A stretch of 61,432 bases of DNA from a virus, in the IMG/VR virus record IMGVR_UViG_3300021963_000138, positions 1-61,432 of that record; one strand, given 5' to 3'. A program made the translations under genes and the position numbers. The notes below the pieces were generated by a model. It saw only the letters and a list, made by a program, of their open reading frames with translations. It did not search any database and had not been told where the DNA came from. Shown here piece after piece: positions 13,526 through 61,432 of the stretch; positions within the stretch are counted from its first letter, which is position 1; every line of letters starts with the position of its first letter.

Positions 13526-13530
13526 GTATT

Positions 13531-13667: not shown

Positions 13668-13680
13668 AAGCATTATGCGA

Positions 13681-13919
13681 GTTGCACAGTACATACAGCG
13701 TTATGGCAATTACAGAGGCGGTCATCCGGTACCTCGAGCCACGTCTTATTAATGACGGCGGATTGCTACACAAACGCAGTCTTGTGCAACAACCGTGGGT
13801 TTTTCTCCCATCTTTTAGCCTTGATATAATACTTTCTTGTACAGTAAACCGGTTCTGTAGGCATATCCGATCGTGGTCCTGTTAAGGATACTACTGTACA
13901 ACCCCTCTACCAAGTAGGG
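13681..13919 (+). ncRNA. Candidate structured noncoding RNA (family unknown)
   Basis: This stretch has no credible reading frame and looks more GC-rich than its surroundings. It contains long-range complementarity: GTTGCACA (13681-13688) with TGTGCAAC (13783-13790), and TTGTACAGTA (13837-13846) with TACTGTACAA (13892-13901), a perfect 10-bp stem. Smaller hairpins sit at 13742-13757, about 13795-13811 (TGGG/CCCA) and 13904-13919 (CTAC/GTAG plus CC/GG). An extended -10 motif lies just before the 10-bp stem on the plus strand, the basis for the strand choice. I do not recognise a known RNA family. Confidence 0.4.
13822..13830 (+). promoter_or_regulatory. Putative extended -10 promoter (TGATATAAT)
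   Basis: TG-n-TATAAT is a perfect extended -10 element of the host vegetative sigma factor; no good -35 is seen. The predicted start about 7 bases downstream (near 13837) coincides with the first base of the 10-bp stem. This would make a small RNA beginning with its own hairpin. Confidence 0.35.
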
Positions 13920-14006
13920 AATTCCATTGACTGCGATCCGAGATCCAGCTTTAAGGGCACACTAACAACGCCGGTGCGGGCTTATTTGGCAGTTAAATTG
14001 CCTGAA
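13920..14006. other. Remainder of noncoding block, nothing definite
   Basis: Between the candidate RNA and the GIY-YIG stop there is no gene-like frame with a start. A plus-strand frame runs open from about 13848 into the opposing gene but lacks a start codon and ribosome site. No tRNA or terminator is recognisable. Confidence 0.4.
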
Positions 14007-14435
14007 TTATTGGCCTTTAAGTATATGCGAACCATGTACACGGACAGATATCTGACCGTTATAATAGTCTTTTGATTCTAAAACTTTGTGATTAAATTGT
14101 TCTCTAGCTTCTATGTAAGAGCATTGCGCCTTGGATGTACAGTAAAATAATATGTCTCTACGGAAATTTTCTTTGCCTAATTGTTCCACATCCTTGCTTA
14201 ATTCAACGTTTGACCCGTAATAATCACGCCAATCGCTGTCTATTTTAGAACGTATCTTCTTTTTCTTCTTGTTGCCGTTTTTAAGTTTTACTGTTTTATA
14301 GCTAGTTTTTGAGAATTTGGCTAGTTTTTTGCCTATGTATTTCCTGCCAGTAATATTATTAGTAATAAGATAAACGAATCCTACGCAAGTTTCGGGTAGC
14401 TCTTCTATTAACTGATTTTCATAATACCATGACAT
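14007..14435 (-). CDS. GIY-YIG family endonuclease
   Basis: A 142-residue nuclease. The N-terminal FVYLITNNITGRKYIGKK is the GIY-YIG core, in the variant form VYL..KYIG. A downstream Arg in SDWRDYYGS and Glu in YIEAREQFNHKV match the catalytic Arg and metal-binding Glu of the family. It is a free-standing single-domain enzyme of the type common in T4-like phages as homing (Seg-like) or repair nucleases. Its ATG directly abuts the stop of the upstream small gene (TGAATG), so it is co-translated with the recombination genes. It lies beside an unexplained noncoding block, which may be relevant if it is a mobile nuclease. Confidence 0.88.
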   Translation of the reverse strand: MSWYYENQLIEELPETCVGFVYLITNNITGRKYIGKKLAKFSKTSYKTVKLKNGNKKKKKIRSKIDSDWRDYYGSNVELSKDVEQLGKENFRRDILFYCTSKAQCSYIEAREQFNHKVLESKDYYNGQISVRVHGSHILKGQ

Positions 14436-46370: not shown

Positions 46371-48185
46371 ATGGCATACATCATAAACAAGTTTAGTGGC
46401 GGGCAATTAGTAGTGCTAGAAGATGGCACACTAGATACTTCAACCAGTCTAGGATTGCTTGGCAGAAACTATACTGGGTATGGTGAAGTACAAAATGAAA
46501 ATTTTGTATTCTTACTAGAGAATTTTGCCAACGAAGATCCTCCATCGAGACCCTTAACTGGCCAGGCTTGGTACAATACCACAATAGGTTCACTTAATGT
46601 TTACAATGGTACAGCGTGGGCCCCTGTAGGGTCAGCCACTACTAGCAACACAGCACCTCCTGGATTTGATGGTGCTCTTTGGTACAAAGACACTACCGAT
46701 CAACTGTTTATATTTGATTCGGGTTTTTGGAAATTAATAGGACCAGAAGCGTTAGAAGGTTATGATACAACTCAGGTTAGAGCAAGAACTATTCTAGACA
46801 CTGCTAGTGTAGAACATGCTGTTGTGGAAATTCTAGTAGATGGTACAACTTTTGCTATCTGTGCAGACGAAGCATTTACCATAGACGACAGCAATTTAAT
46901 TGCAGGATTTGCTAGTCTGCAAGTGGGAACAAACTTTTCTACTAATCGTCCAGCAATAGGTTCTCTAGTTGGTAATGCTGCTAGTGCTTCGAGATTAGAA
47001 CCAGGAAGATTTATTAACGGTATCTTTTTTGACGGACAAACAGATATCACAGTTGCATCAAATACAACTAATACATTGACAAGAGGCACCTATTTAACTG
47101 GTGCAAATTTTAATGGATCAGCGGCAACAACGTGGTCAGTAGATGCTAGTTCGTCCAATGTTATTGGTAAAGTTGTTGCCAGAGATAGTGCAGGAGATTT
47201 TTCTGCAGGAACTATTACAGCTAATTTAGTTGGTAATGTCAGCGGAAACGTAACAGCTACAACTGGAACCAGCACTTTTATTAGGGTAGAAGCCAACGAG
47301 TTTGTTGGTGCTACATTATCAGGCAACGCATTTTCAGCTACAAAACTACAAACAGCAAGAACAATTAATGGTGCATTGTTTGATGGTACTGCAAACATCA
47401 CAGTTCCGGTAGCCGCAGCAGATATAACCGGCACTCGACTAGCATCTAACGTAGTTGAATCTGATCTAACAAGTTTAGGAACCCTTACTAGTTTAAATAT
47501 CAGTTCTTTGGGAATGACACTAGGTGGGCCCGACACAGCAGTTGCACCTCTTAGAATATTTTTAGACAATAACACTATTCCGACACTACACTCTAGAAAC
47601 GTTGGAATAAATTTTACAGTACTTGATAATACTCAGCCTGGAAATTCAACAGCAATCAGGCTGATTAATTCGGCTACATCGTTATCCGTAGGCGGTCTTA
47701 ATGCCCCAGCATTGATTCCAGATATTTCCGGTAATACAAATTTAGGTATTTCTACAGTAAAATGGAACAGTGTATATGCTAATTTTTTTGTTGGCACAGC
47801 AACCTCAGCACAATATGCTGACTTAGCAGAAAAGTATGTAGCAGATGCAAATTATGAAGCAGGAACAGTGTTAGAATTTGGTGGTAAATTTGAAGTAACA
47901 CTAGCAGAAGATAGTACAGCTAGGTTAGCCGGAGTAGTTTCCACTGATCCTGCATACCTAATGAATAGCGAATGTGTAGGCGAACACACAGTTGCACTTG
48001 CATTACAAGGTCGTGTACCCTGTAAAGTAAGAGGTAAAATACAAAAGGGCGATATGTTGATGAGCGGCGGCAACGGTTATGCCCGTAAAGCAACAAACCC
48101 GCAAATAGGTACGATTATAGGCAAGGCTCTAGCTGATTTTGATGGCATAAGTGGAGTTATCGAAGTAGCGGTAGGCAGAGTTTAA
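46371..48185 (+). CDS. Tail fibre paralogue 3 with ADLAEKY-type C-terminal domain
   Basis: A 604-residue fibre with the shared N-terminal module (YTGYGEVQNENFVFLLENFA, GQAWYNT, QLFIFDSGFWKLIGPE). The middle holds repeated VGN-S-G/A-type strands (LVGNAASASRL, TANLVGNVSGNV). The last 130 residues begin QYADLAEKYVADANYEAGTV and continue GVVSTDPAYLMNSE and ALQGRVPCKVRGKIQKGD. That domain is shared with paralogue 4 and occurs at the tips of many marine phage fibres. It resembles self-processing or trimerising C-terminal domains, but I cannot identify catalytic residues. Confidence 0.8.
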   Translation: MAYIINKFSGGQLVVLEDGTLDTSTSLGLLGRNYTGYGEVQNENFVFLLENFANEDPPSRPLTGQAWYNTTIGSLNVYNGTAWAPVGSATTSNTAPPGFDGALWYKDTTDQLFIFDSGFWKLIGPEALEGYDTTQVRARTILDTASVEHAVVEILVDGTTFAICADEAFTIDDSNLIAGFASLQVGTNFSTNRPAIGSLVGNAASASRLEPGRFINGIFFDGQTDITVASNTTNTLTRGTYLTGANFNGSAATTWSVDASSSNVIGKVVARDSAGDFSAGTITANLVGNVSGNVTATTGTSTFIRVEANEFVGATLSGNAFSATKLQTARTINGALFDGTANITVPVAAADITGTRLASNVVESDLTSLGTLTSLNISSLGMTLGGPDTAVAPLRIFLDNNTIPTLHSRNVGINFTVLDNTQPGNSTAIRLINSATSLSVGGLNAPALIPDISGNTNLGISTVKWNSVYANFFVGTATSAQYADLAEKYVADANYEAGTVLEFGGKFEVTLAEDSTARLAGVVSTDPAYLMNSECVGEHTVALALQGRVPCKVRGKIQKGDMLMSGGNGYARKATNPQIGTIIGKALADFDGISGVIEVAVGRV

Positions 48186-48198
48186 ATAGCTTTATAGC

Positions 48199-48206
48199 GA
48201 TAAATA
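48199..48206 (+). promoter_or_regulatory. Putative late promoter (GATAAATA)
   Basis: GATAAATA lies 23 bases before the fourth fibre gene. It fits NATAAATA and is followed by a GGAG Shine-Dalgarno. Confidence 0.6.
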
Positions 48207-48228
48207 ATAGTTAGAACGGAGTATATCA

Positions 48229-49983
48229 ATGGCATATCAAGTAGACAAATTTAATGGAACTTTTCTAGTCTCAGTTGACGACGGAACCATTGATACCACC
48301 ACTGATCTACGCTTTGTAGGAAAAAACTACGCAGGCTACGGCGAAGTACAAAACGAAAATTTCTTGCATTTAATGGAAAATTTTGCAAATACTTCTGCAC
48401 CACCCAAGGCAGTTACTGGGCAAATTTGGTATGATAGCGGCAATAAAAAAATACGTTTCTATGATGGCGCACGATTTAGAACAGCCAGCGGCGCAGAAAT
48501 AGGCCCAACAGCACCGTCTGGATTACAGTCAGGCGATTTTTGGTTTGACACTAGTGCTGAACAATTATATACGTGGAATGGTACTGAGTTTGTTTTAATT
48601 GGTCCAGAAACCCCACCTGATTTAGGTGCAAGTGCAGTGGTTTCACAAGTGGTAAAAGATACACTTGGTAATAACCACACTATTGTAAAATTCCAAGCAG
48701 GTGGTGATGTAATATCAATAGTTAGTAAAGATGCATTTACACTAAACAGCACAATTAATCCTATTACAGGATTCACCACAATTAAGAAAGGTGTTAATCT
48801 AGTTAACACTAATGGTACAACAGGAGTTACATCCACGGATCATTACTTCTGGGGTACCGCAAGCAATGCAGCAAGGCTTGGCGGATACCCAGCTTCGGAG
48901 TACATTAGACTTGGTGAAGTAGCATTTGATAATGAAATTTCTTTTAAAGATTCAGGTCTTACTATTGGTGATCAAAACGATCTGCGTATTAGAGTTGAAA
49001 ACGGCGATGAACCAGTAATTGAAAATCGGTTAGGCAATACAATTACTCTAAGAGTTAGAGTAAGCGACAGTGATTTGAGAAATGTAGGAATTATTTCTTC
49101 AACAGGAATGGTTCCAGGTACAACTAATTTCTTTAATTTAGGATCAACCGCGTCTAGATGGGCTAATGTCTATTCTACAACATTCACTGGAGATGTATTA
49201 GGTAATCTTACTGGTAATACACTAGGTATACATCGCGGAAATATATTAGCCAGCAGCGAGGCTCTAGCATTTAATGCTGCCACTCAAACATTTATAGGTA
49301 GTTTTACAGGTACACTTACCGGAAACGTAATTGGAAACATTACAGGTACAGCTACAAATTCACTGAGCTTAAACAGTCTAGTTGGAGAACAAACAGCGGT
49401 TGCAACTTCAGTAGCACTAAGAGACGGATCTGCTAATTTAACAGCAAATAGATTTATTGGAGTTACTGATAGATCCGATAGATTAAAAATTGATGATACA
49501 GCCGTGGACACTGATCCTAATTATAGGTCAGCTAAAACTACAAAAACAGCCAACACCATTGCGGCTAGAGACGGGGCTGGTAATTTATTAGCCAACACAT
49601 TTGATGGTACAGCAACAGCAGCACAGTATGCCGACTTAGCAGAAAAATATCTTGCTGATCAAGACTACGAAGTTGGAACAGTGGTTGCAGTTGGCGGAGA
49701 AAAAGAAGTTACTGCAGCCAGATATGGTGATAGAGCAATTGGAGTAGTGTCTGCTAATCCGGGATTCATGATGAATAAGGATCTAGAAGGCGGAACATAC
49801 ATTGCACTAAAAGGTCGAGTACCAGTTAAAGTCACAGGTTCAGTACAAAAAGGTCAGCGACTAGTAGCCGCAAATGACGGCACAGCGGTAGCAGCGGTAC
49901 CTCATGCTAACGATGTGTTTGCAATTGCATTGGAATCTAACAATAATGTTGAAGTTAAAACAATAGAAGCATTGGTATTATAA
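48229..49983 (+). CDS. Tail fibre paralogue 4 with ADLAEKY-type C-terminal domain
   Basis: A 584-residue fibre, closest to paralogue 3. The N-terminal module is clear (YAGYGEVQNENFLHLMENFA, GQIWYDS, QLYTWNGTEFVLIGPE, IVSKDAFTLN). The middle has repeated TGDVLGNLTGN-like strands. The C-terminal domain (QYADLAEKYLADQDYEVGTV, GVVSANPGFMMNKDLEGG, ALKGRVPVKVTGSVQKG) matches paralogue 3 in order and spacing but differs in many residues. Paralogues 3 and 4 thus come from a duplication of a whole fibre gene. The next gene starts nine bases later. Confidence 0.8.
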   Translation: MAYQVDKFNGTFLVSVDDGTIDTTTDLRFVGKNYAGYGEVQNENFLHLMENFANTSAPPKAVTGQIWYDSGNKKIRFYDGARFRTASGAEIGPTAPSGLQSGDFWFDTSAEQLYTWNGTEFVLIGPETPPDLGASAVVSQVVKDTLGNNHTIVKFQAGGDVISIVSKDAFTLNSTINPITGFTTIKKGVNLVNTNGTTGVTSTDHYFWGTASNAARLGGYPASEYIRLGEVAFDNEISFKDSGLTIGDQNDLRIRVENGDEPVIENRLGNTITLRVRVSDSDLRNVGIISSTGMVPGTTNFFNLGSTASRWANVYSTTFTGDVLGNLTGNTLGIHRGNILASSEALAFNAATQTFIGSFTGTLTGNVIGNITGTATNSLSLNSLVGEQTAVATSVALRDGSANLTANRFIGVTDRSDRLKIDDTAVDTDPNYRSAKTTKTANTIAARDGAGNLLANTFDGTATAAQYADLAEKYLADQDYEVGTVVAVGGEKEVTAARYGDRAIGVVSANPGFMMNKDLEGGTYIALKGRVPVKVTGSVQKGQRLVAANDGTAVAAVPHANDVFAIALESNNNVEVKTIEALVL

Positions 49984-49992
49984 GGATAAAAT

Positions 49993-50901
49993 ATGGCAAT
50001 CGGTGATTTCATTTCCGCAACGGACTACAATACAATTAGAACTAAAATTATCAATGTTATGAGCACTGGCTCTGGAAATTTTGGTTATGGTCAAACAACA
50101 TTTAGTTCTTTAGTTGCAGCCGGAAATACTGTGACAAAAACACAGTGGGATGCGCTTCGATTTGACATCTACAATGCAATCCTTCATCAAACAGGATCAG
50201 CTGCTTCTTTAGTTCAGGTAGCAGTAGGAGACGTTATTAGATATGGTGCAAGCAATCCAAATACACAATATGATACTGTTGCTAATACTGCAATTACTAA
50301 CCGTTTTGATTTAGGTACAGGACAATTTGTAACAGAAGCTATTGACAGTAAGTCTTTCTCTTCATCATGGTATCAATCTATCAGTGCTACGGCATCAGTT
50401 AGCTTTGCTACAGCAGAACAGGCTAGATTCTTTTTTAATGCAGGCGGCAAAATACGATTTGCTAGTTCAAGATCGGGCGGATCTGGGGTTGCACAAAATA
50501 CTTCTTGGAGTAATTTGTTAAGCAGTGCCGGCACACAATCCTTTGTTGGCGGTCCGTCGGGTATTAATTTCTTTTCATTGACTAGCTCTTTTCAAACATT
50601 TTCTGAAACAGCAGGAACTAGTGCGTACACCAATAACAAATGGCGTTTAGAAGCGTCATGCAACGTTGCTAACAATGCATCAGGAACTGCTAATGTAGTC
50701 AATTTTAGAATAACATGGATAGACGCATATGTTGATCCAGGTCCGGCAACCCCAGAAAATTTACCTCCTGGGGATCTAGTAGACGGTACATTTACTCTTA
50801 CAGTTGATCAAGTTCGCCCATCGGGATTTCTGCAACCCAGCGGTACATTTACAACTGTTGGACCAACTTCTACTTCAGTAAGCGCAATCTCGGGTTCATA
50901 A
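49993..50901 (+). CDS. Putative structural protein following the fibres
   Basis: A 302-residue protein beginning MAIGDFISATDYNTIRTKI. The N-terminal 70 residues (NTIRTKIINVMSTG, GNTVTKTQWDALRFDIYNAI) look helical. Residues about 110-245 are beta-rich and Ser/Thr/Gly-rich (KIRFASSRSGGSG, WRLEASCNVANNASG), and the tail is Pro/Thr/Ser-rich. Such composition fits a short fibre or decoration protein. It is co-linear with the fibre genes and has no late promoter of its own. The regulatory hairpin of the next operon begins six bases after its stop. Function is not known. Confidence 0.6.
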   Translation: MAIGDFISATDYNTIRTKIINVMSTGSGNFGYGQTTFSSLVAAGNTVTKTQWDALRFDIYNAILHQTGSAASLVQVAVGDVIRYGASNPNTQYDTVANTAITNRFDLGTGQFVTEAIDSKSFSSSWYQSISATASVSFATAEQARFFFNAGGKIRFASSRSGGSGVAQNTSWSNLLSSAGTQSFVGGPSGINFFSLTSSFQTFSETAGTSAYTNNKWRLEASCNVANNASGTANVVNFRITWIDAYVDPGPATPENLPPGDLVDGTFTLTVDQVRPSGFLQPSGTFTTVGPTSTSVSAISGS

Positions 50902-50907: not shown

Positions 50908-50955
50908 ATCTCCTAAAAAACATCACATAAATAATGTGCGTGTTTTATAGGAGAT
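50908..50955 (+). promoter_or_regulatory. Shine-Dalgarno-sequestering hairpin of about 20 bp
   Basis: ATCTCCTA (50908-50915) pairs perfectly with TAGGAGAT (50948-50955), which contains the ribosome binding site of the next gene. After one A-A mismatch the stem continues 50917-50922 with 50941-50946, then a G-U pair and one bulge, then 50924-50928 with 50934-50938, leaving a 5-base loop. The late promoter overlaps the loop and the last inner pairs. Readthrough RNA would fold and hide the ribosome site; late RNA starting near 50940 lacks the 5' arm. Confidence 0.8.
50926..50933 (+). promoter_or_regulatory. Late promoter (CATAAATA) at the hairpin apex
   Basis: A NATAAATA match 26 bases before the ATG at 50959, located at the apex of the hairpin. 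Transcripts from it would begin inside the 3' arm and leave the ribosome site (TAGGAG) free. Confidence 0.65.
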
Positions 50956-50958: not shown

Positions 50959-51309
50959 ATGGACGACCGTCTAAAAGCAGCCTTGGATTTTTCAAATTAT
51001 AGGCAAACTCTAGCAATTCAAAGAAAAACCCTAAAAGAAAAAATTGAGGGCAAGTTGACCTATGGCCACTCCGGCGGAATATTTAAAATTGACAGAACAT
51101 TATTAGTCTTTGTTCAAATGTTAATTGATCAGGGCAGAACTGAAAACATTCCCTTAATCGATCAAAATGAAAATCCTGTCCTTATTGCTAATCTACTAGA
51201 ATTTCGAGATGAAATACTAGATAGATATTTTACATCTACCTATGAGTATCACAAAGAATACCAAAAGATTAAATCTAGTAGAACTGTAGAAAAATTATTG
51301 AATGTATGA
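50959..51309 (+). CDS. Conserved phage protein, first gene of glycosyltransferase operon
   Basis: A 116-residue, mainly helical protein. Visible stretches are LDFSNYRQTLAIQRKTLKEK and YGHSGGIFKIDRTLLVFVQM, and the C-terminal half is charged. No enzyme motif or membrane segment is seen. Its translation should be restricted to late transcripts by the upstream hairpin, which contains its TAGGAG site. Its stop overlaps the next start (ATGA). Similar small proteins accompany fibre genes in marine T4-like phages; an assembly role is possible but not shown. Confidence 0.6.
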   Translation: MDDRLKAALDFSNYRQTLAIQRKTLKEKIEGKLTYGHSGGIFKIDRTLLVFVQMLIDQGRTENIPLIDQNENPVLIANLLEFRDEILDRYFTSTYEYHKEYQKIKSSRTVEKLLNV

Positions 51310-52166
51310 ATAAAGGCATCTTAATTTTTGCTCACAACGGTCCTGAAGTAGATTATGGTACCATGAGTATAATTGCTGGCGGTCTAGCAAAAAAACATTT
51401 AGGATTACCAGTAAGTCTAGTTACAGATAAATGGACAATTGCTTGGCTTAAAGAATCTAATATGTATGCAAAGGCCGAGTCAGTGTTTGATAAAATTATT
51501 GAAATTGAAAAGCCTCGAACAAAAAATACAAGAAAACTACATGATGGATTTCACAGTCAAGTAATTCCCTTTGTTAACTCGAATAGATTTTCAGTCTGGG
51601 ATATTAGCCCCTATGATCAAACTTTATTAATCGATAGCGATTATTTAATTTTTTCTGATCGATTAAACGAGTATTGGAATGTAGATAGTAGTGTAATGTT
51701 AGGACATTCAATGAATGACATTACTGGAGAACGCAGTGGTATATTAGATCAACGAGTTAGCGAAACTGGGGTTCACATGTTTTGGGCCACTACTGTAATG
51801 TTTACTAAAAACGAAGAAAGTCGTTTCTTTTTTAAATTAGTAGACTTTGTCAAAGACAACTATGTATACTATGCTGATTTGTTTAGATTTAATCCTAAAC
51901 AATATAGAAATGACATTGCATTTAGTGTTGCTAAACATATAATGAACGGATTTGAAACAGAGTTCATTTATACATTACCTCCTATACTAACAGTTTTTGA
52001 CAAAGACATGTTAGAGTCTGTAGAAGATACTAAACTAACTTTTTTAATTGACAAACCTCTTAATTGCGGTGAGTTTTGGGCTGCTACTACAAATGGCCTA
52101 GATGTACACATTATGAATAAACAAAGTATAATGAGACACAAAGAAAAATTACTGGAGTTAATATGA
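51306..52166 (+). CDS. Glycosyltransferase-like protein (GT-A, DxD-type)
   Basis: A 286-residue protein with the layout of a GT-A transferase. The N-terminal strand GILIFAHNGPEVDYGTMSI is followed by a helix-rich nucleotide-binding half. The metal-binding DxD equivalent is DQTLLIDSDYLIF near residue 112. Downstream GVHMFWATTVMFTKNEESR resembles the acceptor side of GT8-like enzymes. Sugar donor and acceptor cannot be read. Phage sugar transferases next to fibre genes may decorate virion proteins, phage DNA or host surface glycans. Start and stop both overlap neighbours by ATGA. Confidence 0.68.
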   Translation: MNKGILIFAHNGPEVDYGTMSIIAGGLAKKHLGLPVSLVTDKWTIAWLKESNMYAKAESVFDKIIEIEKPRTKNTRKLHDGFHSQVIPFVNSNRFSVWDISPYDQTLLIDSDYLIFSDRLNEYWNVDSSVMLGHSMNDITGERSGILDQRVSETGVHMFWATTVMFTKNEESRFFFKLVDFVKDNYVYYADLFRFNPKQYRNDIAFSVAKHIMNGFETEFIYTLPPILTVFDKDMLESVEDTKLTFLIDKPLNCGEFWAATTNGLDVHIMNKQSIMRHKEKLLELI

Positions 52167-53005
52167 ACTTTGGTTATCTGATCGTAGTCGCTTCGAATCC
52201 AGATGTAGATTATCTCAAACTGGCCTATGCATTAGCGTTGAGTATTAAAAATACTCAGAAACCCGGATATGATAAAGTTGCACTAGTAATAGACAATCCG
52301 TCATTAGTTGAAAGTTTAAAAAGTCCTTGGGTGTTTGATCATGTTATTCATTGGGATAAAGAAACATATTGGGATGGCCGAAGCTATATGGATCAACTGA
52401 GTCCTTTTGATAATACAGTTTGCCTTGATGCCGACATGTTATTCTTAAGAGATCATAGTCATTGGATTGATTACTTTGTAGAAAATTCTGAACTATATGT
52501 TCCTGCTAGAGCATTTACCTACAGAGGCGAAGTAGTTACTAACGATTACTATCGTAAAACATTTACAAAAAATAATTTACCTAATCTGTACTCGATGTTT
52601 ACATTTTTTAAGAAAGATTCTGCTTTTGCAAAAGAATTTTTTGATCTAGGTAGGTACATTATAAAAAACCCTATAGAGTTTAGCAATTTGTATTTGAACA
52701 AACAAAAACCAAAAGTTGTCGGTACAGATGAGGCGTTTGCATTAAGTGCTAAAATTTTAGATATCGATGGCGAAATTAGTTATGATTTAGAGTTTCCGAA
52801 TATTGTTCACATGAAACCTATGATACAAAATTGGCCGTGGACCGCAGATCGAGTTACTGAACATGCAGGATTCTATTTCAGTACTTCCGGAAATTTAAAA
52901 ATTGGAAATTATCAGCAGCACGGCATCGTACACTATGTTGAAAAAGATTTAATAAATGACGAAATTGTCAGCATGTTAGAGGAGATCGCATGGGACAAGA
53001 ACTAA
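52163..53005 (+). CDS. Glycosyltransferase-like protein, related to preceding gene
   Basis: A 280-residue GT-A-like protein starting MNFGYLIVVASNPDVDYLKL, parallel in layout to the previous gene. The DxD motif is in DNTVCLDADMLFLRDHSHW near residue 92. Later landmarks are LYSMFTFFKKDS, VVGTDEAFALSAKI (a frequent acceptor-side Asp/Glu) and a His-rich end (QQHGIVHYVEKD). It probably transfers a sugar in a metal-dependent manner; donor unknown. The two genes look like an old duplication. The end overlaps the next gene by 16 bases. Confidence 0.7.
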   Translation: MNFGYLIVVASNPDVDYLKLAYALALSIKNTQKPGYDKVALVIDNPSLVESLKSPWVFDHVIHWDKETYWDGRSYMDQLSPFDNTVCLDADMLFLRDHSHWIDYFVENSELYVPARAFTYRGEVVTNDYYRKTFTKNNLPNLYSMFTFFKKDSAFAKEFFDLGRYIIKNPIEFSNLYLNKQKPKVVGTDEAFALSAKILDIDGEISYDLEFPNIVHMKPMIQNWPWTADRVTEHAGFYFSTSGNLKIGNYQQHGIVHYVEKDLINDEIVSMLEEIAWDKN

Positions 53006-53580
53006 TGGATTTTGATGAATGGATTCAATTACCAGTTAATCAGACCGTTGAATATTATGCAACGTTTAAAGACGACGGTTCTTTAATAGGAGTTTATCCT
53101 TCTCATACAGTTGAAACCGTTATTAATAAAATAAAAATTGATGATGAAATAGCAACGGCGATTTCTAACGGCACTGAAAATTTATTTTCTTATAAAGTTG
53201 ATGTACCGACCCAAAAGCTTCTTAAGATAAACAAATTTTCAATGCACAATTTGATAAAAATTGATGATGTGTTGCATAGAATTATAGATAAAAAGTGGTC
53301 AAACATTGATGATCCAGATATCACAATTGCTTATAATGGTAGCGGAATATTAACATTTTCTATGAATCCACGATATGCTAACAATGTTATCTGGGACGGT
53401 GATACTGTTATGATTTTCTTAATAACTGAATACAATGATCCTAATGCATTAATCGAAATGATTAGTATCAGAGCAGGGGATATTACAGAAAATGCAAAAT
53501 CGTTTAATGTATTATTACCTAAAAAATTTAGTATCTATACAAGAAGAATTTTTGACAAATACGTATTTGAGGCAGAATGA
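52990..53580 (+). CDS. Unrecognised protein inside the glycosyltransferase operon
   Basis: A 196-residue protein of mixed alpha/beta appearance, without a motif I recognise. Stretches such as DEWIQLPVNQTVEYYATFKD and ITIAYNGSGILTFSMNPRY suggest a beta-sandwich. The ATG at 52990 has a clear GAGGAG site and overlaps the preceding gene; an alternative ATG at 53005 forms a TAATG junction. The end overlaps the next start by ATGA. Its place between transferases suggests a partner or substrate protein, which is speculation. Confidence 0.55.
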   Translation: MGQELMDFDEWIQLPVNQTVEYYATFKDDGSLIGVYPSHTVETVINKIKIDDEIATAISNGTENLFSYKVDVPTQKLLKINKFSMHNLIKIDDVLHRIIDKKWSNIDDPDITIAYNGSGILTFSMNPRYANNVIWDGDTVMIFLITEYNDPNALIEMISIRAGDITENAKSFNVLLPKKFSIYTRRIFDKYVFEAE

Positions 53581-54488
53581 AAACAGTAGAATTAGACATT
53601 GTCTTTTTGAGTTATGACGAACCTAATGCAGATAAACACTATGCTGATCTGTGTAATAAATTACCTTGGGCAAAACGTGTTCACGGTGTAAAAGGCAGTG
53701 ATGCTGCCCATAAACGTGCTGCTGAATTATCAGAAACTGAATGGGTTATTACTGTTGATGCCGATAACATCGTTGACCCTAAGTTTTTCAATTTAGAAAT
53801 TGATACAAGTAATCCTAAAATACAAGTGTATAGTTGGCTAGGAAGAAATAAATTAAACGGATTACTTTACGGAAACGGTGGCCTAAAGATTTGGCGTAAG
53901 GATTTTATCCTTAACATGAAAACACACGAAGCCAGTGATAGCGATCGTGCTCAAGTTGATTTTTGTTGGGAAGATGGATATCGTCAATTTAAAGAATGTT
54001 ATAGCGAAACTGTTATTACCGGAAGTCCTTTTCAAGCATGGCGAGCAGGATTCCGTGAAGGTGTTAAAATGACCTTGCTTGACGGAGTTAAAGTTCCTCC
54101 TCAAGAAATCGGCGAACGGATTTGGTGGCATAACTTACACAGATTACGCATGTGGGCCACTGTTGGAGCTCATGAAGAACACGGACTATACGCTGTATAT
54201 GGTGCAAGATTAGGCACTTGGTTAGCAAATTGTACAGATTGGAATTATGTAGATGTTCGAGATTTTGAAATACTAAAAAACATTTATCACGATTACGGTA
54301 AGCCGTTTGAAGATGACAACGGCAGAGGCTTAGTTGAAGAGATTAAATCTATTGGAAGTAAAATTAAATTAGAATTGGGGTTTGACTATCCTTATCTAGA
54401 TAGCCAACAAAGCAAGTATACCTTAGATTTGTACGAAGAAACTATTAAATTAACAAATACATATATGAGGGCAACCGATGGTCTATGA
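53577..54488 (+). CDS. Glycosyltransferase-like protein with intact DAD motif
   Basis: A 303-residue protein of glycosyltransferase family-2-like form. The N terminus is ELDIVFLSYDEPNADKHY, followed by AKRVHGVKGSDAAHKRAAEL (nucleotide-binding half) and the metal site VITVDADNIVDPKFF near residue 60. NGLLYGNGGLKIWRKDF and TGSPFQAWRAGFREGVKM follow. The same sequence order recurs at the C terminus of the next gene, so the two are paralogues. Its end overlaps the next start by 11 bases. Sugar and acceptor are unknown. Confidence 0.7.
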   Translation: MKTVELDIVFLSYDEPNADKHYADLCNKLPWAKRVHGVKGSDAAHKRAAELSETEWVITVDADNIVDPKFFNLEIDTSNPKIQVYSWLGRNKLNGLLYGNGGLKIWRKDFILNMKTHEASDSDRAQVDFCWEDGYRQFKECYSETVITGSPFQAWRAGFREGVKMTLLDGVKVPPQEIGERIWWHNLHRLRMWATVGAHEEHGLYAVYGARLGTWLANCTDWNYVDVRDFEILKNIYHDYGKPFEDDNGRGLVEEIKSIGSKIKLELGFDYPYLDSQQSKYTLDLYEETIKLTNTYMRATDGL

Positions 54489-56484
54489 TGTTTTTTATGT
54501 AAGCAAAAATATTATTGATGAGCAAGATTGGAAACAATTTCGTTCTAGATTTCCATCTGCTCAAAAAATTGAGAATGTAAAATCTTTTAATGACATTAGA
54601 AAGAAAGCATTTACAAAGTTATTCTGGGTAGTTTGGGACGATTTAGAAATTGTTGAAAATTTTGATTTTAGCTATCGGGTTTCAGAATGGGATCAAAATT
54701 ATATCCACGTTTGGTTAAATGCCACTTCATATGACGGAGTTGTCTTGTTTGGTAAAAATTCTGAACCAACTCAAAAAGAATTTGAACACAGATTTTTTAC
54801 TAACAAAAAAGAAATTTCTGTTGTAGCAAGTATTCCTAAGCATTACGATCAATTTGTTATTTCTAATTATAATGATTATTTAAACGCATTAGATACAACA
54901 CGCACTGAGATGTTTTGGGGCATCTGGAACAACGTCGAAGTTATTAATCAAAAAATATTTAACACCTATTTTAGTCATCACGCCAGACAAAGCAGAATTG
55001 AAAATCATGTTTTTAAAAATGTATGCAATGATCGAGAATCGTTTGTTAACGGAGTTGTTCTGTTCAGTAAAAATACTGTTGTGTCTCAAAAAGAGATTGA
55101 CTATAAATTTTTAATCAATAAAAAAGAATACGACATTATAGCAAGTCAAAATAGATATCCTAGATATATAATTTCTACCTACGACGAATATTTAAATATT
55201 TGTAAAACAGAAACACAATCGTTGTTCTGGTGCGTTTGGCCGGATATTGATATTACTGATAACACAATTTTTGATTTTTACTTTGATCCGTTTAACGGCG
55301 AATATGATTATGATAGAACAGTGAATCATATGTTTAAAAATCAAGTGGGCAGTGAAGAATCTTTCATCAGTGGTCTTGCATTATGCTCCCCAAGTAAACC
55401 TGTATCTAAGAAAGAAATTGAACATAGATTTTTCATGGACAAAAAAGAACACGATCGAGTAGTAAGTAGTGCTAGGCCGTATGAAAAATTTGTTATCAAT
55501 ACTTTCAAAGACTACGAATATGCTATGGCCGCCACCACAACAGATATGTTCTGGATGATTCCGCCAGAAGTTGAACCGTTAGATGATTTTAAATTTGATC
55601 TATATTTTCCCTATCAGAACAATTACGAACGTGGAATAAATCACGTTTTTAAAAATAAGGATGTAGAAGAAAACAAATACAACGGCATTATGCTGTTGTC
55701 AAAAAAAGCATCAGTGTCTTTGAGAGAAATTGAATATAGATATTTGATTGAAAAGAAAGAATATGACATTGTAGCAAGTGAACTTAAATTATATGACATC
55801 GTGTTTATCAGCTATAATGAACCTAATGCTGACGAAAACTATAAAACATTGTGTGATAGATTTCCTAGAGCAAAGAGAGTGCATGGTATAAAAGGTATTC
55901 ATCAAGCACACATAGCTGCCGCAAAATTAGCAACTACTCCTATGTTTTGGGTAGTTGACGGTGATGCTGTTATAGAAGATAATTTTAAATTTGATCTATT
56001 ATTACACAAACATGATACTGACATTGTGCATGTGTGGCTAAGCCGCAATCCTATAAACGGATTAACATATGGTTATGGTGGCGTTAAGCTATTGCCTAAG
56101 CAATTGACAGAAAATATGGACTTGTCTAATACCAAGATTGATATGACAATGTCAATTAGTAATAAATTTAAAGTTGTACAAGAAGTTAGTAATATTACAG
56201 CATTCAATACAGATCCTTTTAGCACATGGAAATCAGCATTTAGAGAATGTGTAAAGTTAGCCAGTAGACCCGTTAACGCTGACTATCAAGAAGAAACTGA
56301 AGATAGATTAATTACTTGGTGTAATATTGGTACCGAAAAACTTCACGGAGAATACAGTATAGCAGGAGCTCGAGCTGGGAAACAATACGGGTTAGCACAC
56401 ATTGCTGATTCTGTACAACTAGCAAAAATTAATGATTTTGAATGGCTGCTAGAGCAATTTCAAAATCCATCGCCTCTTGCCTGA
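54478..56484 (+). CDS. Multi-repeat glycosyltransferase: four degenerate repeats plus one intact domain
   Basis: A 668-residue protein. Residues 435-668 are a family-2-like transferase closely matching the preceding gene (YDIVFISYNEPNADENY, AKRVHGIKGIHQAH, metal site WVVDGDAVIEDNF). Residues 1-434 are four tandem repeats of about 105-118 residues (about 1-118, 119-223, 224-330, 331-434). Each has an (M/L)FW strand, an (I/V)F-type strand, a short LF/LLSK turn and a KKE..(I/V)(V/I)AS end. The repeats align with the catalytic domain itself, but the DGD is replaced by WDD, WNN, WPD and PPE, so they look non-catalytic. They may bind glycans or serve as spacers. The gene end overlaps the convergent radical SAM gene by 25 bases. 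Confidence 0.7.
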   Translation: MVYDVFYVSKNIIDEQDWKQFRSRFPSAQKIENVKSFNDIRKKAFTKLFWVVWDDLEIVENFDFSYRVSEWDQNYIHVWLNATSYDGVVLFGKNSEPTQKEFEHRFFTNKKEISVVASIPKHYDQFVISNYNDYLNALDTTRTEMFWGIWNNVEVINQKIFNTYFSHHARQSRIENHVFKNVCNDRESFVNGVVLFSKNTVVSQKEIDYKFLINKKEYDIIASQNRYPRYIISTYDEYLNICKTETQSLFWCVWPDIDITDNTIFDFYFDPFNGEYDYDRTVNHMFKNQVGSEESFISGLALCSPSKPVSKKEIEHRFFMDKKEHDRVVSSARPYEKFVINTFKDYEYAMAATTTDMFWMIPPEVEPLDDFKFDLYFPYQNNYERGINHVFKNKDVEENKYNGIMLLSKKASVSLREIEYRYLIEKKEYDIVASELKLYDIVFISYNEPNADENYKTLCDRFPRAKRVHGIKGIHQAHIAAAKLATTPMFWVVDGDAVIEDNFKFDLLLHKHDTDIVHVWLSRNPINGLTYGYGGVKLLPKQLTENMDLSNTKIDMTMSISNKFKVVQEVSNITAFNTDPFSTWKSAFRECVKLASRPVNADYQEETEDRLITWCNIGTEKLHGEYSIAGARAGKQYGLAHIADSVQLAKINDFEWLLEQFQNPSPLA

Positions 56485-57719
56485 TGCTCTTTAAAATTAT
56501 TTTTATTTGGTCTAGAGTTCCCTTTGTGAGTCCAGATCCTATCAATAGGACTATCTTCTCCACAAGTTTTAGCACAATACATTAGTTTATCATCGTCAGA
56601 CTTATTCCACGAATTTGCATAGACTAAATTAAGATGATTCTTTTCAATAATTTCTTCTAAAGAATATTTGTTTAGATTAAAATAGTCTTTACCGTAGTCT
56701 TCTATTTTTTTCTTAAGTTGTAAATTTTCAACAATGTTATGTGTAGTTCCGGACATAGTTCCTATATAACAGCAGGGAAAAATTTGTCCCGTACTACTGA
56801 CATAGATTTCTCTTAATCCGCCCCAAGTTTCAGATTTACAAGAAATAGTTTTGTTATTAGACTGCGTATAGTCAATGGGTTTTTCTTGAAAAGTTTTTCC
56901 GTCATACACTTTGATTGCTTCATTATGCGGATCAATAATTTCTTTTTTATAGATAGTTATAATTGAAGTATTGACTTCTGGTAATAGATCAGTAAGAACT
57001 CTATTTTTTGTATAGTTTCTATTGTCTAAATCTTCGGGAGGTTCTAACCAGTACTGAAAATCACCTTCTTTGTTTAATGCTGCTACTCGAACTAGATCAT
57101 CGTTAAAATATTCAAACCCTAATGCTTTCTTTGGTGCAAAATTATTAAATCCTAATTCTTCTGATAATTTTTTAGCTTCCTGTATTTGGTGTTCGTTATG
57201 TTTGAAAATTAAATAATCCCAAGCAGCATTTCCGCCAGCACCAATATAGGCCTTTACATTACGCATTAATGTTGTCCAGTCTACGTTTCTTCTATACAAG
57301 TGATTGGTATCTTCTAATCCGTCGATTGAAAAAATAATGCGTAGGCGTTTATCAAACTTTTTAGATACGGCTCCGAGGTGTGCCCAATTTGATTCGTTTC
57401 TAATGCCACCGTTGGTGTTAAATGTGATATAGATTTTTTCGTTGTTTTCGTAAATATAGTCAACTATTTTAAAAACATCTTTGGCCATCATTGGATCGCC
57501 GACTGTACCGCAGAACATAAAATGATTTAGTTTTGCAATAAGCTCAGGTTTAAACCATTCTTTAAATTGATCAATGGTAATTTGTGCAAGTTCTAAGTCA
57601 GGTCTAACAATCTCACTGCCTTGATAGTATCGAGGGCACATAGGGCATGCCGCATTACAATAGCTAGAAAGTTCAACGTGAATTTGTGCTAATAATTCTT
57701 TATTCCAAAAGTTGTTCAT
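56460..57719 (-). CDS. Radical SAM protein with C-terminal SPASM-like cysteines
   Basis: A 419-residue radical SAM enzyme. CNAACPMC (Cys21, 25, 28) binds the catalytic 4Fe-4S cluster, right after the first strand (IHVELSSYC). GTVGDPMM takes the place of the usual GGEP strand, and FNTNGG and IIFSIDGL follow. The C-terminal part has a SPASM-like set: a Cys in ISCKSETWGG, GQIFPCCYIG (Cys pair near 315) and YCAKTCGE near 387, likely holding auxiliary clusters. Such enzymes modify peptides, proteins or sugars; the substrate is unknown. It is the last gene of the radical SAM operon and overlaps the previous gene by ATGA. Confidence 0.85.
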   Translation of the reverse strand: MNNFWNKELLAQIHVELSSYCNAACPMCPRYYQGSEIVRPDLELAQITIDQFKEWFKPELIAKLNHFMFCGTVGDPMMAKDVFKIVDYIYENNEKIYITFNTNGGIRNESNWAHLGAVSKKFDKRLRIIFSIDGLEDTNHLYRRNVDWTTLMRNVKAYIGAGGNAAWDYLIFKHNEHQIQEAKKLSEELGFNNFAPKKALGFEYFNDDLVRVAALNKEGDFQYWLEPPEDLDNRNYTKNRVLTDLLPEVNTSIITIYKKEIIDPHNEAIKVYDGKTFQEKPIDYTQSNNKTISCKSETWGGLREIYVSSTGQIFPCCYIGTMSGTTHNIVENLQLKKKIEDYGKDYFNLNKYSLEEIIEKNHLNLVYANSWNKSDDDKLMYCAKTCGEDSPIDRIWTHKGNSRPNKNNFKEHQARGDGF

Positions 57720-58885
57720 TTGTAATTCCTAATCAACTCGCCGAATTCGGGAAAAGTTTTATAATAATCTTCTTTTCTAAACTCATCATGTACTGCTATT
57801 TCTTGTTTAAAGTTATCCCAACGCCATTGCTCAAATTTTCCATCTTTTACAAACTGTATAATTCCTGGTAATTGTCTCCAGACCGATTCGTAGGACTTAT
57901 CAATGGTTTCTAATTTTTTACAAATTTCTTCTTTAATAGAATCGGGAAATATTTGACTACAATAATAGTCCGGATAATGCACCAAATTTAAATAAACATT
58001 CCAGTCCTTTTGAAAGAATTCAACAACTTCAGGGATATAATATACGTTTAATGCACTTATAGTATGACAAACATCAAAGTATAAATTGGGCCTATCTTTA
58101 GACCATTCCTTAGCCTTCTGCATATTTGCATATACTTCGTCCCATTTTGCAGGATGTCTCATAAACTCAAATCTTTCACCAATACCGTCTATACTAAATC
58201 CTATACTCACAAATTTAAAATTTTCTAATAACGGAAGAAGCTCTTCAGGCCATTGAGTTCCGTTTGTATTATAGTGTAGGCTCATGTTTTTTGCCCACCC
58301 GTTCTTAACACAGGTTCTTATAAATTCCCATTGCTGTTTAATCAGCCAAGGCTCACCGCCGTAGAAATCCACAACTACAATGCCTTCTCCAATTTTATCT
58401 AGATTAGCCCATAAAGGGCTTTCTTTTTCCCAGCTGTCGTTATAATTTTTTGAATTAATTAAGAATGTTTTATAATCAGTTTTTACTTTATCAACTTTAG
58501 TTTCGTAAAATTCTTTAAGCCATTGACTGCTGCTATAGGGATGACAGGTACGACATTTGATATTACAAGTATTACCCATGTTAAGCTCTAGTGTTTTAAT
58601 ACCGTCGCCTTCTTTAAAATCAAACTTTTTATTATCTCTAATACGTTTGCTATCACGGCCCGCATCTTCTTCATTCCAGCATTTAGAACAACTGGGGTGC
58701 CTTTTTCCTTGACGAAAATATTCACGAACTTCGTTCATCCATGGCTCTGTCCATAAATCTTCTAGAGATTTATCTAATACTCTTCCTCGAGTTTGACCAT
58801 CTATCATGCAACAGTGCTTTACTGTGCCAGTAGAGTTAACGCTAAGATTATGTGATGCGTTAACGCAATAAAACTCATTTTCCAT
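57716..58885 (-). CDS. Radical SAM protein with N-terminal twitch/SPASM-like module
   Basis: A 389-residue enzyme. The core motif CNIKCRTC (Cys107, 111, 114) lies unusually far from the N terminus. GGEPW near residue 177, YNTNGTQW and IGFSIDGIGERF follow in normal order. Residues 1-75 hold five cysteines (7, 25, 26, 66, 69) in a G-x-V-x-x-CC...C-x-x-CW arrangement that resembles a SPASM/twitch module but sits before the core. The C terminus HDEFRKEDYYKTFPEFGEL is similar to that of the two upstream genes. It overlaps both neighbours (4 and 11 bases). Substrate unknown. Confidence 0.85.
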   Translation of the reverse strand: MENEFYCVNASHNLSVNSTGTVKHCCMIDGQTRGRVLDKSLEDLWTEPWMNEVREYFRQGKRHPSCSKCWNEEDAGRDSKRIRDNKKFDFKEGDGIKTLELNMGNTCNIKCRTCHPYSSSQWLKEFYETKVDKVKTDYKTFLINSKNYNDSWEKESPLWANLDKIGEGIVVVDFYGGEPWLIKQQWEFIRTCVKNGWAKNMSLHYNTNGTQWPEELLPLLENFKFVSIGFSIDGIGERFEFMRHPAKWDEVYANMQKAKEWSKDRPNLYFDVCHTISALNVYYIPEVVEFFQKDWNVYLNLVHYPDYYCSQIFPDSIKEEICKKLETIDKSYESVWRQLPGIIQFVKDGKFEQWRWDNFKQEIAVHDEFRKEDYYKTFPEFGELIRNYK

Positions 58886-60266
58886 AATTTAGATATTCCT
58901 GTTTGCACATTTCCATAAATTCGTGATACTCTGGAAATAGCGTGTAAAAGTCTGTAGAGTTTCGTTTATCAGTTTCGTTAAAGAAAACATAAAAATCTCT
59001 ACGACCCTTTTTAATTTTTTCTGGATCGACTGGATTCTGTCTCATATAGTCAACTACACGTTTAAAAACTTCATACTCGATTTCATTAAATCCGGTTTGA
59101 TTTCCATCTTTTATAAAGTTAGACTTGATAAATTCTAGATTGTCATCCATATACTTATTAAAACTTTCTGGCAGGATGTTTATCATCCAGTGCGGAGGTT
59201 CCTTTAAGTAAGGAGTGTCGAACTGAACACGCTGATGCCACGCTGTTCCTGGAAAGTCTTTTCTAAGTTCTAGGATCTTTTCTAATAGTGTTCTAAAATT
59301 TGCAACTGTAAGTACATTAAATGTAATCATAAAACTAATGTCTTGTTTTGGCAAATTATCTAGGTAGTAGCGCAGATTCTTTTCCCATAGAACAACATCT
59401 AAATTTGTTCTAATATATTCTGCCTGTGGACCCCAAGTATCAATACTAGTATATAATTTAAAACCTTTGATAGCTTTCTTTTCTAACAATACTTTAACAT
59501 GGTCTACTAATTTCTGTACCAAACGATGTGTAATGCCTAGATTGCTGTTAACATGGATTTCTAGATTAGGTTCCGGATCGTTTTCCAACATTTCTAACAA
59601 TTTAAATGTGTTAGGATTCATCAGCGGTTCACCGCCGGTAATTCTAAACACACGTAGATCTTTCTTTAGACTTGGCCACCATTCCCAGAAAGCATCTACA
59701 TAAGGATTAGGGTCGTCCTTGTTGAAGAAGTCGCTATGCTCTAAAAATTCAATACCATATTGGTTGTAAGTTAGATCGTAATTGCCGTGCCTTTTAATTT
59801 CTTCCATCCACGAACTAGATGCTTGTGGACAGCAATACCCGCAGCGGAAATTACAGCCGTTTCCAAAACTAACTTCTAGGTGTCTGGGATTCCAATTGGT
59901 TTCCCAGCCTTGTTTAATGATATCTTCGAAGGTATCACTTATGTAGTTAGAGCTGTGTTTCATGCGATCACTAATATGATCACCTTCTAGGTCTTCAATA
60001 TTCCAGCAGTAGTAGCACTCTTCTGGACGACCCCCTTCCATCATTAACTTACGCTGTAGTTTTTTCCATGGTGTATTATGTAATGCACTGGGATTGTCTT
60101 TTAATAGGTCTTTATCAATTTTATGAGGACGAGGGTGATAGCAACTATGATTGTCGCCCATATGGAGATATAGTGTTTCCATATTCCATTTTGCTAGACA
60201 AAATCCCTTGCCTACTGTGTTTAACTTATCACGTGTTTCGTGGATAATTTCTATATATTTTTTCAT
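58875..60266 (-). CDS. Radical SAM protein, twitch-type, paralogue of next upstream gene
   Basis: A 463-residue enzyme with CNFRCGYC at Cys138, 142 and 145, TGGEPLMNPNTFKLLEML near residue 222 and LYTSIDTWGPQAEYIR. The N-terminal 100 residues carry Cys23, 42, 84 and 87, ending in CYYCWNIEDLEG, which matches CSKCWNEEDAG in the downstream gene. The C terminus has DKRNSTDFYTLFPEYHEF. The block NPYVDAFWEWWPSLKKDL is nearly repeated in the gene upstream, so the two are recent paralogues. The substrate is unknown. ATGA overlap with the upstream gene. Confidence 0.85.
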   Translation of the reverse strand: MKKYIEIIHETRDKLNTVGKGFCLAKWNMETLYLHMGDNHSCYHPRPHKIDKDLLKDNPSALHNTPWKKLQRKLMMEGGRPEECYYCWNIEDLEGDHISDRMKHSSNYISDTFEDIIKQGWETNWNPRHLEVSFGNGCNFRCGYCCPQASSSWMEEIKRHGNYDLTYNQYGIEFLEHSDFFNKDDPNPYVDAFWEWWPSLKKDLRVFRITGGEPLMNPNTFKLLEMLENDPEPNLEIHVNSNLGITHRLVQKLVDHVKVLLEKKAIKGFKLYTSIDTWGPQAEYIRTNLDVVLWEKNLRYYLDNLPKQDISFMITFNVLTVANFRTLLEKILELRKDFPGTAWHQRVQFDTPYLKEPPHWMINILPESFNKYMDDNLEFIKSNFIKDGNQTGFNEIEYEVFKRVVDYMRQNPVDPEKIKKGRRDFYVFFNETDKRNSTDFYTLFPEYHEFMEMCKQEYLNYGK

Positions 60267-61432
60267 TTAATGTTCCTGTACCATTCTGCTAATTGTGGAA
60301 AGGTTTCAACAAAATTCTGTTGTCTTCTTTTATCGTGCTCTGTAAAAAACTCTTTTAGATCGCTAGCATGATGATTTATGTCTGATGCATTATACTTATT
60401 ATCTTCAATCATCTTGATATTTCGTTCTACTTTATCTAATTCAAAAGGTTTAAACCCTGTAAACGTATTGTTGTATGCAACAATATTAGTCTGCGTAGAC
60501 ATCCATTGTTGTATAGATTTTAATTCAGCTATCTGTTCATCGGATGCATTAAACACACTTAACCATTTAGGACTGCGTAATAGTGGAATATCAAACCATA
60601 CCCTTTGAAATGGTTCGTCTATTGTTTGTTTATCTTTAGAAAATTCGTCTCGAAGATCTAATATAAATTCTAAATAATTTTTGAATTTTGGAATACTTAA
60701 CAAATTAAATGTGTTGATAAAACTAACACTGGTATTTTTAGTTTCTTTTAAAAATTTATAGACATTCTTTTTTAGTGTTTCAAATACCAAGCCGTTTCTA
60801 AGATATTCTGCATGTTCATTAACACTATCTAAACTGACATACAAAATAAAATGTTTGCAGGCTTTATCTTGATATTTGTACAAATAGGTAAAACTACCAT
60901 CTTCGAGTGCATGTCCAATTTCTGGAAATGTCTGAGGTATATCTTTTCTTTCTATACTAGGCAACGGATTATTATGATAGGTTTTTTCTTCTGCACCTAT
61001 TACAAAGTGCGGCCATGTTTGCCACTCTGAACCATCTTTAGGATCGGGAACATAACATTCTACATCATAGTTAACTGAGTCTAACAGTTTGACTTTTTCT
61101 AAAAATTTATCAAATATATCCTGTCTAGGAGGACACATATTACTGGTTATGCCTAGCTCTAAATTTTTATTCGGATGACTATAAACATAGTCTAGTATTT
61201 TAAATGTATTAGCATCTAATAACGGCTCACCGCCGGTCATTCTAAACACTTCTAGGTCTTTGTATATCTTAGGCCACCACTGCCAAAATGCCTGTACATA
61301 AGGATTGTTTTTATTAGACTCATCAATGGGCATTAGGCCTATGTTCTTTAGTGTAATAATATCGTTATGTGCCTGACCGTTTATTTTATACGGGCCAAAC
61401 TTTTTAACTTCATTCTCCCACTCGCTGCTAAG
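60263..61432 (-). CDS. Radical SAM protein (5' end beyond window)
   Basis: The frame is open to the last base of the window; 389 residues are visible and the N terminus with the CxxxCxxC motif lies outside. An ATG at 61333 is internal, because the upstream codons (SSEWENEVKKFGPYKING) align with the same region of the neighbouring paralogue. TGGEPLLDANTFKILDYV, LYVSLDSVNEHAEYLR and the end EHDKRRQQNFVETFPQL are conserved with that paralogue. A section near the middle with a Glu/Asp/Trp-rich insertion is not shared. Function as for the rest of the cluster: a radical SAM modifying enzyme with unknown substrate. Confidence 0.82.
   Translation of the reverse strand, partial: LSSEWENEVKKFGPYKINGQAHNDIITLKNIGLMPIDESNKNNPYVQAFWQWWPKIYKDLEVFRMTGGEPLLDANTFKILDYVYSHPNKNLELGITSNMCPPRQDIFDKFLEKVKLLDSVNYDVECYVPDPKDGSEWQTWPHFVIGAEEKTYHNNPLPSIERKDIPQTFPEIGHALEDGSFTYLYKYQDKACKHFILYVSLDSVNEHAEYLRNGLVFETLKKNVYKFLKETKNTSVSFINTFNLLSIPKFKNYLEFILDLRDEFSKDKQTIDEPFQRVWFDIPLLRSPKWLSVFNASDEQIAELKSIQQWMSTQTNIVAYNNTFTGFKPFELDKVERNIKMIEDNKYNASDINHHASDLKEFFTEHDKRRQQNFVETFPQLAEWYRNIK

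Follow-up and report, generated by a model that had tools for sequence, protein, structure and literature searches.

The abundance of radical SAM (S-adenosylmethionine) genes in T4-like phages has been noted since 2010, and no tested function for them was found in the literature. According to excerpts of the published accounts, the T4-related Campylobacter phages CP220 and CPt10 have 11-12 genes of this kind and an exchangeable module of five (Timms 2010, PMC2853527), and Campylobacter phage IBB_35 is similar to both (PMC3322345). The same kind of source reports a marine T4-like genome with 12 radical SAM genes (PMC5332604) and, for pelagimyophages, a host-recognition region with radical SAM cassettes and glycosyltransferases (Zaragoza-Solas 2020, PMC7029224). 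The locus considered here comprises four radical SAM genes, R1-R4, and the adjacent glycosyltransferase genes in the IMG/VR virus record IMGVR_UViG_3300021963_000138. The whole record of 61432 bases was analysed and is called the window below.

R1-R4 are read here as radical SAM enzymes of a late-expressed phage glycan-tailoring island, and the probability of this reading is put at roughly 0.55. The observations behind it are the enzyme motifs, purifying selection, conserved gene order, near-constant pairing with glycosyltransferases (GTs), an exchangeable cargo rich in sugar enzymes and a late-type motif before the GT operon. From these we infer a glycan substrate, its acceptor and each individual reaction.

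Radical SAM enzymes R1-R4

Four open reading frames (ORFs) lie on the minus strand at the right end of the window (56460-61432), each overlapping the next, just as a preliminary description of this DNA had stated. R1 (56460-57719, 419 aa) has its radical SAM core in the N-terminal part and a C-terminal cysteine set resembling SPASM/twitch domains. R2 (57716-58885, 389 aa) combines the radical SAM core with an N-terminal SPASM/twitch domain. R3 (58875-60266, 463 aa) has an N-terminal twitch and is the most constant radical SAM type of the island. R4 (60263-61432) belongs to the same family as R2 and R3; its 389 aa are open at the contig end.

The preliminary description took all four for radical SAM genes. 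For R1 (31.8 bits), R2 and R3 this is borne out by the Pfam radical SAM model PF04055, whose cut-off is 29.5 bits. The window alone does not support it for R4, which reaches 18-21 bits because its N-terminal part is missing; its CxxxCxxC motif falls outside the window, beyond the contig end. For R4, the sequence past position 61432, in which the rest of the operon was to be sought, is supplied by a second contig, IMGVR_UViG_3300021962_004770 (loci L014 and L032). It holds a whole R4 of 548 aa (L032, 753-2396) whose last 389 residues are exactly those of the window and which bears the motif CNFKCAYC. Whole R4 (both frame pieces) scores 30.6 bits on PF04055 and 288 bits on the NCBIfam model NF033640. 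By these motifs R1-R4 are assigned to the radical SAM superfamily, R4 through its whole copy. On the second contig R1 is split into two frames (L032, 4943-6198), while R1 of the window is intact; R2, R3 and the part of R4 that the window contains do not differ between the two contigs.

NF033640 is named N_Twi_rSAM, the twitch being a half-SPASM domain and here N-terminal. Its curated cut-off of 170 bits assigns R2 (307 bits), R3 (304 bits) and whole R4 to the family, the window part of R4 reaching 148 bits. The family name gives no function. R1 falls outside and was rejected as a member (72 bits). On the SPASM domain model, R1 scores 16 bits, below the cut-off, and R2 scores 29.2 bits over residues 7-70. 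Cysteines C21-C25-C28, C294, C316, C317, C382 and C386 of R1 are invariant in 29 aligned relatives, as are C138, C142 and C145 together with C23, C42, C84 and C87 of R3 in a 40-row alignment. The radical SAM and auxiliary-domain cysteines of R2 are likewise invariant in 32 sequences. Predicted auxiliary Fe-S cluster sites thus appear to be conserved in the R1-R3 alignments. The dN/dS ratio was 0.013-0.038 in all six comparisons of the window with close relatives, R4 being represented by its whole copy. With the motif cysteines kept and dN/dS low, R1-R4 are under purifying selection and are predicted to be active enzymes.

Structure prediction, proposed earlier as a check on the active sites, covered R2 and R1. 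The AlphaFold models of R2 and R1 are confident (mean pLDDT of 94 and 89, respectively), and they match known radical SAM structures over the core for R2 and over nearly the full length for R1. The best folds are a mixture of peptide (SuiB, SkfB, anSME), nucleoside (BlsE, viperin) and sugar (DesII) enzymes, the top ones lying within about 1 Z; therefore, structure leaves the substrate class undecided. A sequence search of the PDB returned no useful relative of R1 (best E 0.44) and only SkfB for R2 (E 0.006).

The view that at least two of the four genes are recent paralogues had to be abandoned. R3 and R4 are 43% and 31% identical over two stretches. In the tree of radical SAM proteins (FastTree, LG, midpoint root, 275 representatives out of 566 sequences) they fall into separate clades of 20 tips (support 1.0) and 42 tips (support 0.994), respectively, each holding other viruses plus bacterial sequences. 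A recent duplication was rejected on these grounds, and R3 and R4 are placed by the tree as old subfamilies maintained separately.

The glycosyltransferase island and its cargo

R2 and R3 were used to scan IMG/VR, and 102 loci were obtained. Five of them (L007, L008, L011, L013 and L014) are other views of contigs retained under other identifiers and were omitted, and the remaining 97 were merged by blastn into 56 non-redundant groups; gene clusters were formed by single linkage. Since the loci were picked via R2 or R3, the presence of these two genes is biased; the bias is weaker for gene order and for whether R4 and R1 are present. Of the 56 groups, 35 contain both R3 and R4, and in 33 of these R4 directly precedes R3; all four types are found in 28 groups. 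R4-R3-R2/R1 is a conserved module. In the window lineage the whole R4-R3-R2-R1 block is inverted with its internal order intact, and in the window it meets the GT operon tail to tail. The last two genes of this operon, GTA1 and GTA2, are putative glycosyltransferases referred to below as the GTA family. GTA genes run in the same direction as the radical SAM genes in 40 groups and solely in the opposite direction in nine.

To control for this bias, a further IMG/VR scan used only the GTA family (the type at window position 53577). The set consisted of the best 80 of at least 599 loci; it was not merged for redundancy, and at least four of its contigs (L176, L177, L202 and L254) were already in the first set. 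A radical SAM gene was present in 71 of the 80 loci, in 52 of the 56 with a length of at least 8 kb and in all 22 of at least 15 kb. The common frame of the island consists of fibre genes, a 302-aa protein, a 116-aa protein, two GT8-like enzymes, a protein of about 200 aa and two GTA genes, which are followed by the cargo. A conserved 102-aa gene after the cargo, usually on the opposite strand, forms the far edge. All 52 islands with both edges (not merged for redundancy) contain a radical SAM gene, as do all 23 in the GTA-picked subset. Of the 52, 35 have R3 and R4, 14 have R3 without R4 and three have R4 without R3. The gene adjoining the GTs is R4 in 23 islands, R3 in 14, R1 in 11 (the flipped lineage) and another gene in four. 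Of the preliminary description, it is upheld that the radical SAM genes are co-directional and overlapping, that they are conserved as a set and that this set is tied to glycosyltransferases and fibres.

In the window the island runs on the plus strand up to GTA2. The fibre block (46371-50901) contains two fibre-like proteins and the 302-aa protein; PHROG tail fibre matches were obtained for 46371-48185. The 116-aa protein (50959-51309), which heads the GT operon, was found in 60 of the 97 loci. PHROG has no match for it or for the 302-aa protein. Two GT8-like glycosyltransferases follow (51306-52166 and 52163-53005). A 196-aa protein (52990-53580) is a constant part of the frame (49 of the 97 loci) and has no match in Pfam, NCBIfam or PHROG. 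GTA1 (53577-54488) is a putative GT2-like enzyme with D61 and D63 invariant in 30 rows. Its relative GTA2 (54478-56484, 668 aa), which clusters with it, contains repeats and a C-terminal GT2-like part, and overlaps R1 tail to tail. None of eleven window-type proteins (the island and the 302-aa protein) looks transmembrane in a simple hydropathy scan, the maximum mean being 1.39 over 19 residues.

An operon of glycosyltransferases facing the radical SAM genes had been proposed, and the evidence differs between its two pairs. The profile of the GT8-like family matches glycogenin over about 105 positions (E 7e-6), and the products of 51306 and 52163 are assigned as GT8-like by this similarity to solved GT8 enzymes; the Pfam GT8 model itself is found in only two of 30 members of the family. 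The GTA pair is weakly GT2-like. A Pfam match of the GT2 type was obtained for one of 30 members of the GTA1 family (E 0.0085), and GTA2 matches PF00535 below the cut-off (E 0.01). The two invariant aspartates would fit a GT-A fold.

The cargo is exchangeable. Its recurrent Pfam families are Epimerase/GDP_Man_Dehyd (NDP-sugar epimerase/dehydratase), UDPG_MGDP_dh (UDP-sugar dehydrogenase) and the DegT aminotransferase; 2OG-Fe(II) oxygenases, weakly GDSL-like proteins, a B12-binding radical SAM enzyme and unannotated families also recur. A single radical SAM gene is left in 14 of the 52 islands with both edges, and other enzymes are present instead, which weighs against a fixed four-step pathway. 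The recurrent cargo families are found both in these single-gene islands and in others.

ATAAATA is the core of the T4 late promoter. It occurs nine times in the window, and six copies fall in the intergenic 1.8% of its bases, all of them 21-49 nt ahead of a codirectional start. One of them (50927-50933, plus strand) lies 26 nt ahead of the 116-aa gene heading the GT operon. In five loci with the flipped block (L033, L034, L037, L038 and L039), ATAAATA stands 28-34 nt ahead of a same-strand gene located about 2.2 kb upstream of R4. These positions make late transcription of the island likely.

Possible role of the island and other explanations

Late in infection, the soluble GT8-like and GT2-like enzymes would build a glycan on a cytoplasmic acceptor, which could be a virion protein, such as a fibre, or a host surface glycan precursor. 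The radical SAM enzymes would act on sugars by means of the 5'-deoxyadenosyl radical, aided by an auxiliary Fe-S cluster, leading to oxidation, deoxygenation, epimerisation or rearrangement of either the nucleotide sugar or the glycan. The step that nearly always accompanies the transferases would be that of the R3 type. R4, R2 and R1 would perform further tailoring, in place of which other phages may swap in NDP-sugar epimerases/dehydrogenases, 2OG oxygenases or GDSL-like proteins. We incline towards a virion acceptor in view of the soluble enzymes, the late-type motifs and the adjacent fibre genes. The transporter neighbours of bacterial relatives would, by analogy, favour a surface polysaccharide.

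The bacterial relatives of R3 belong mostly to Bdellovibrionota. One scan of bacterial genomes yielded 69 loci, and 48 titles, by our count, name lineages of this type. Phage frame genes were present in seven of the 69 loci. Some of the others have ABC_tran and ABC2_membrane (Pfam), GT1 and carbamoyltransferase genes as neighbours; we read the ABC_tran/ABC2_membrane pairs as belonging to the polysaccharide-export kind. R3-like genes were found in all of ten whole Bdellovibrionota genomes and the GTA family in three, with a radical SAM gene at a distance of about 30 nt, 330 nt and 6.2 kb. In a Bacteriovoracaceae metagenome-assembled genome, GTA adjoins an R3-like gene, and the two are surrounded by GT2, PMT_2-like and amino-oxidase genes. 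A 4.5-Mb Bdellovibrionia genome has a GTA-GTA-radical SAM set with an R1-type gene nearby; the same locus has a further radical SAM gene on the opposite strand, beyond a possible transposase gene. Eight Bacteriovoracaceae loci (L115, L118, L125, L126, L132, L163, L168 and L175) combine an R3-like gene with a protein of about 318 aa near housekeeping genes of the rplU-obg type. This protein has, in our reading, a nucleotidyltransferase-like stretch, and the one member checked had no Pfam match.

Several observations count against a glycan-tailoring role. No substrate-specific homologue was found, and the closest folds are those of enzymes acting variously on peptides, nucleosides and sugars. 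A search of the PDB gave no match for the GTA family, which in the window exceeds no Pfam cut-off. The two largest cargo clusters gave no Pfam match in the representative scanned, and the window cargo consists of radical SAM genes only, with no nucleotide-sugar enzyme between the GTs and the edge gene. Genes may lie in one hypervariable region and still belong to different pathways. The seven of ten Bdellovibrionota genomes that have R3-like genes and lack the GTA family indicate that the radical SAM enzyme can work without GTA; in bacteria the two are therefore not strictly linked. As to timing, just one of six ATAAATA copies in L044 is intergenic. Of the full octamer TATAAATA the window contains a single copy, whereas 8.7 would be expected; this test was uninformative, and the shorter ATAAATA was adopted after the TATAAATA result was known.

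The radical chemistry might act on a protein or peptide, either one of the fibres or a precursor that has escaped recognition, as in RiPP (ribosomally synthesised and post-translationally modified peptide) maturases and sulfatase-maturing enzymes, the GTs being mere neighbours. The SPASM-like C-terminal layout of R1, the presence of SuiB, anSME and SkfB among its best folds and the fibre block adjoining the island speak for this. On the other side, the genes of the radical SAM block overlap or abut in 10 close-relative loci and leave no space for a precursor gene; none was found inside the block, and a precursor gene may lie farther away. PqqD/RRE (PF05402) was found in none of 20 phage records, mostly fragments, and an RRE-dependent RiPP system was rejected for this reason. 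The preliminary description had likewise seen no precursor gene. The lack of space and of a PqqD-type RRE makes peptide modification less likely; no NCBIfam model of RiPP maturases comes near its cut-off, and many exchange partners are sugar enzymes. This explanation is considered rather unlikely. Viperin-like antiviral nucleotide chemistry, or a counter-defence, is very improbable: the pVip models are weakly matched (best 32.7 bits), whereas R2 and R3 reach 31 and 18.7 bits on NF038283 (cut-off 180 bits), and the match is confined to the common radical SAM core. A viperin identity was accordingly rejected.

A part in host or phage metabolism, such as synthesis of cofactors (haem, molybdopterin), modified nucleotides or hypermodified DNA, is suggested by weak family matches to enzymes of the MoaA, NirJ, AhbD and QueE types and by a QueE-like gene that relatives carry a few kb upstream of R4. 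The scores are far below the curated cut-offs. For haem b synthase AhbD (TIGR04545), rejected as an identity of R1, the score was 43 bits against 500, while 13 of 29 R1 relatives match it at E 1e-5 or better (best 3.9e-11). Haem, tungsten-cofactor and molybdopterin enzymes were all rejected as they failed the family cut-offs. The near-constant partners are glycosyltransferases and fibres, and the late-type motifs fit poorly with DNA glucosylation, an early-to-middle process in T4. A metabolic role is thus held to be improbable, and phage genes of this kind that are labelled as haem or cofactor genes may be misannotated. An excerpt of a Baltic Sea survey lists 261 viral 'ahbD' genes (PMC9301287), which may be R1-like enzymes. 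It is equally improbable that a hypervariable region has gathered unrelated cargo and that the radical SAM genes are hitchhikers with different roles in different phages. Cargo is indeed swapped between islands, and radical SAM cassettes have been described, in the part of the source available, as insertions in the host-recognition region (PMC7029224). However, the invariable presence of a radical SAM gene in the 52 islands with both edges, the R4-R3 order kept in 33 of 35 groups and the recurrence of the GTA-radical SAM pairing in bacterial chromosomes all argue against hitchhiking.

Glycan tailoring, the preferred reading, offers a testable phage-glycan hypothesis for unexplained radical SAM genes, given the tie to GTs and the swapping of radical SAM and sugar enzymes; GTA-GTA-R3 is the minimal set for such a test. 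A broader proposal is tentative and somewhat doubtful: that largely uncultured T4-like phages carry a modular late 'glycan foundry', in which fixed GTs and exchangeable radical SAM enzymes would supply radical-modified sugars for the fibres of the virion or for the host surface, and to which loci of predatory Bdellovibrionota would correspond. If this proposal is true, phages would gain their first known radical-sugar pathway.

Comparison with known systems

The window phage is assigned to the T4-like phages, in agreement with the preliminary description, by the portal protein (phrog_213), the SbcCD-type subunits and the late sigma factor. Its portal (4561-6258) is closest to those of the jumbo phages PA5oct (or PA5oct-type) and Phosso, at 48-50%; therefore, the full phage genome may be large. 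Genes were called mechanically as the longest non-overlapping ORFs. The block ahead of the fibre genes includes a single ORF of 4578 aa (28004-41740). About 510 bases at 13496-14007 contain no ORF of at least 80 aa, which is unusual for a genome with an intergenic share of 1.8% of bases.

The search of the INPHARED phage collection with R3 and two window GTs gave no match. In the literature, searched by title and the start of the abstract, no fixed GT-radical SAM island, four-enzyme order or sugar-enzyme exchange was found. The Bdellovibrionota loci L117 and L259 resemble the window in that GTA adjoins a radical SAM gene; unlike the window, they have no fibre genes, L117 has other glycosyltransferases alongside and L259 has a possible transposase inside. 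The cultured Pelagibacter phage Mosig (MT647606) has three genes annotated as MoaA-like (molybdenum-cofactor type), which adjoin genes for a carbamoyltransferase, an ArnB-like aminotransferase, a methyltransferase and an epimerase and lie beside fibre genes and VrlC. It differs from the window in having no NF033640 match, and its relative of R1 is just 25% identical over 42% of the protein.

Pelagimyophages and marine T4-like genomes share with the window the radical SAM cassettes, the GT8 glycosyltransferases and the location in a host-recognition region, while the excerpts of both papers describe no fixed GT-radical SAM frame, four-enzyme order or exchange with sugar enzymes (PMC7029224, PMC5332604). 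The radical SAM proteins of CP220 are not of the same family as R2-R4, the best of them scoring 31 bits on NF033640 against the cut-off of 170. As far as the excerpted description of CP220 and CPt10 goes, the window phage is like them in being T4-related, in having many radical SAM genes and in its modular arrangement. T4-like phages with multiple radical SAM genes have been in print since 2010, and the window represents a variant of that kind.

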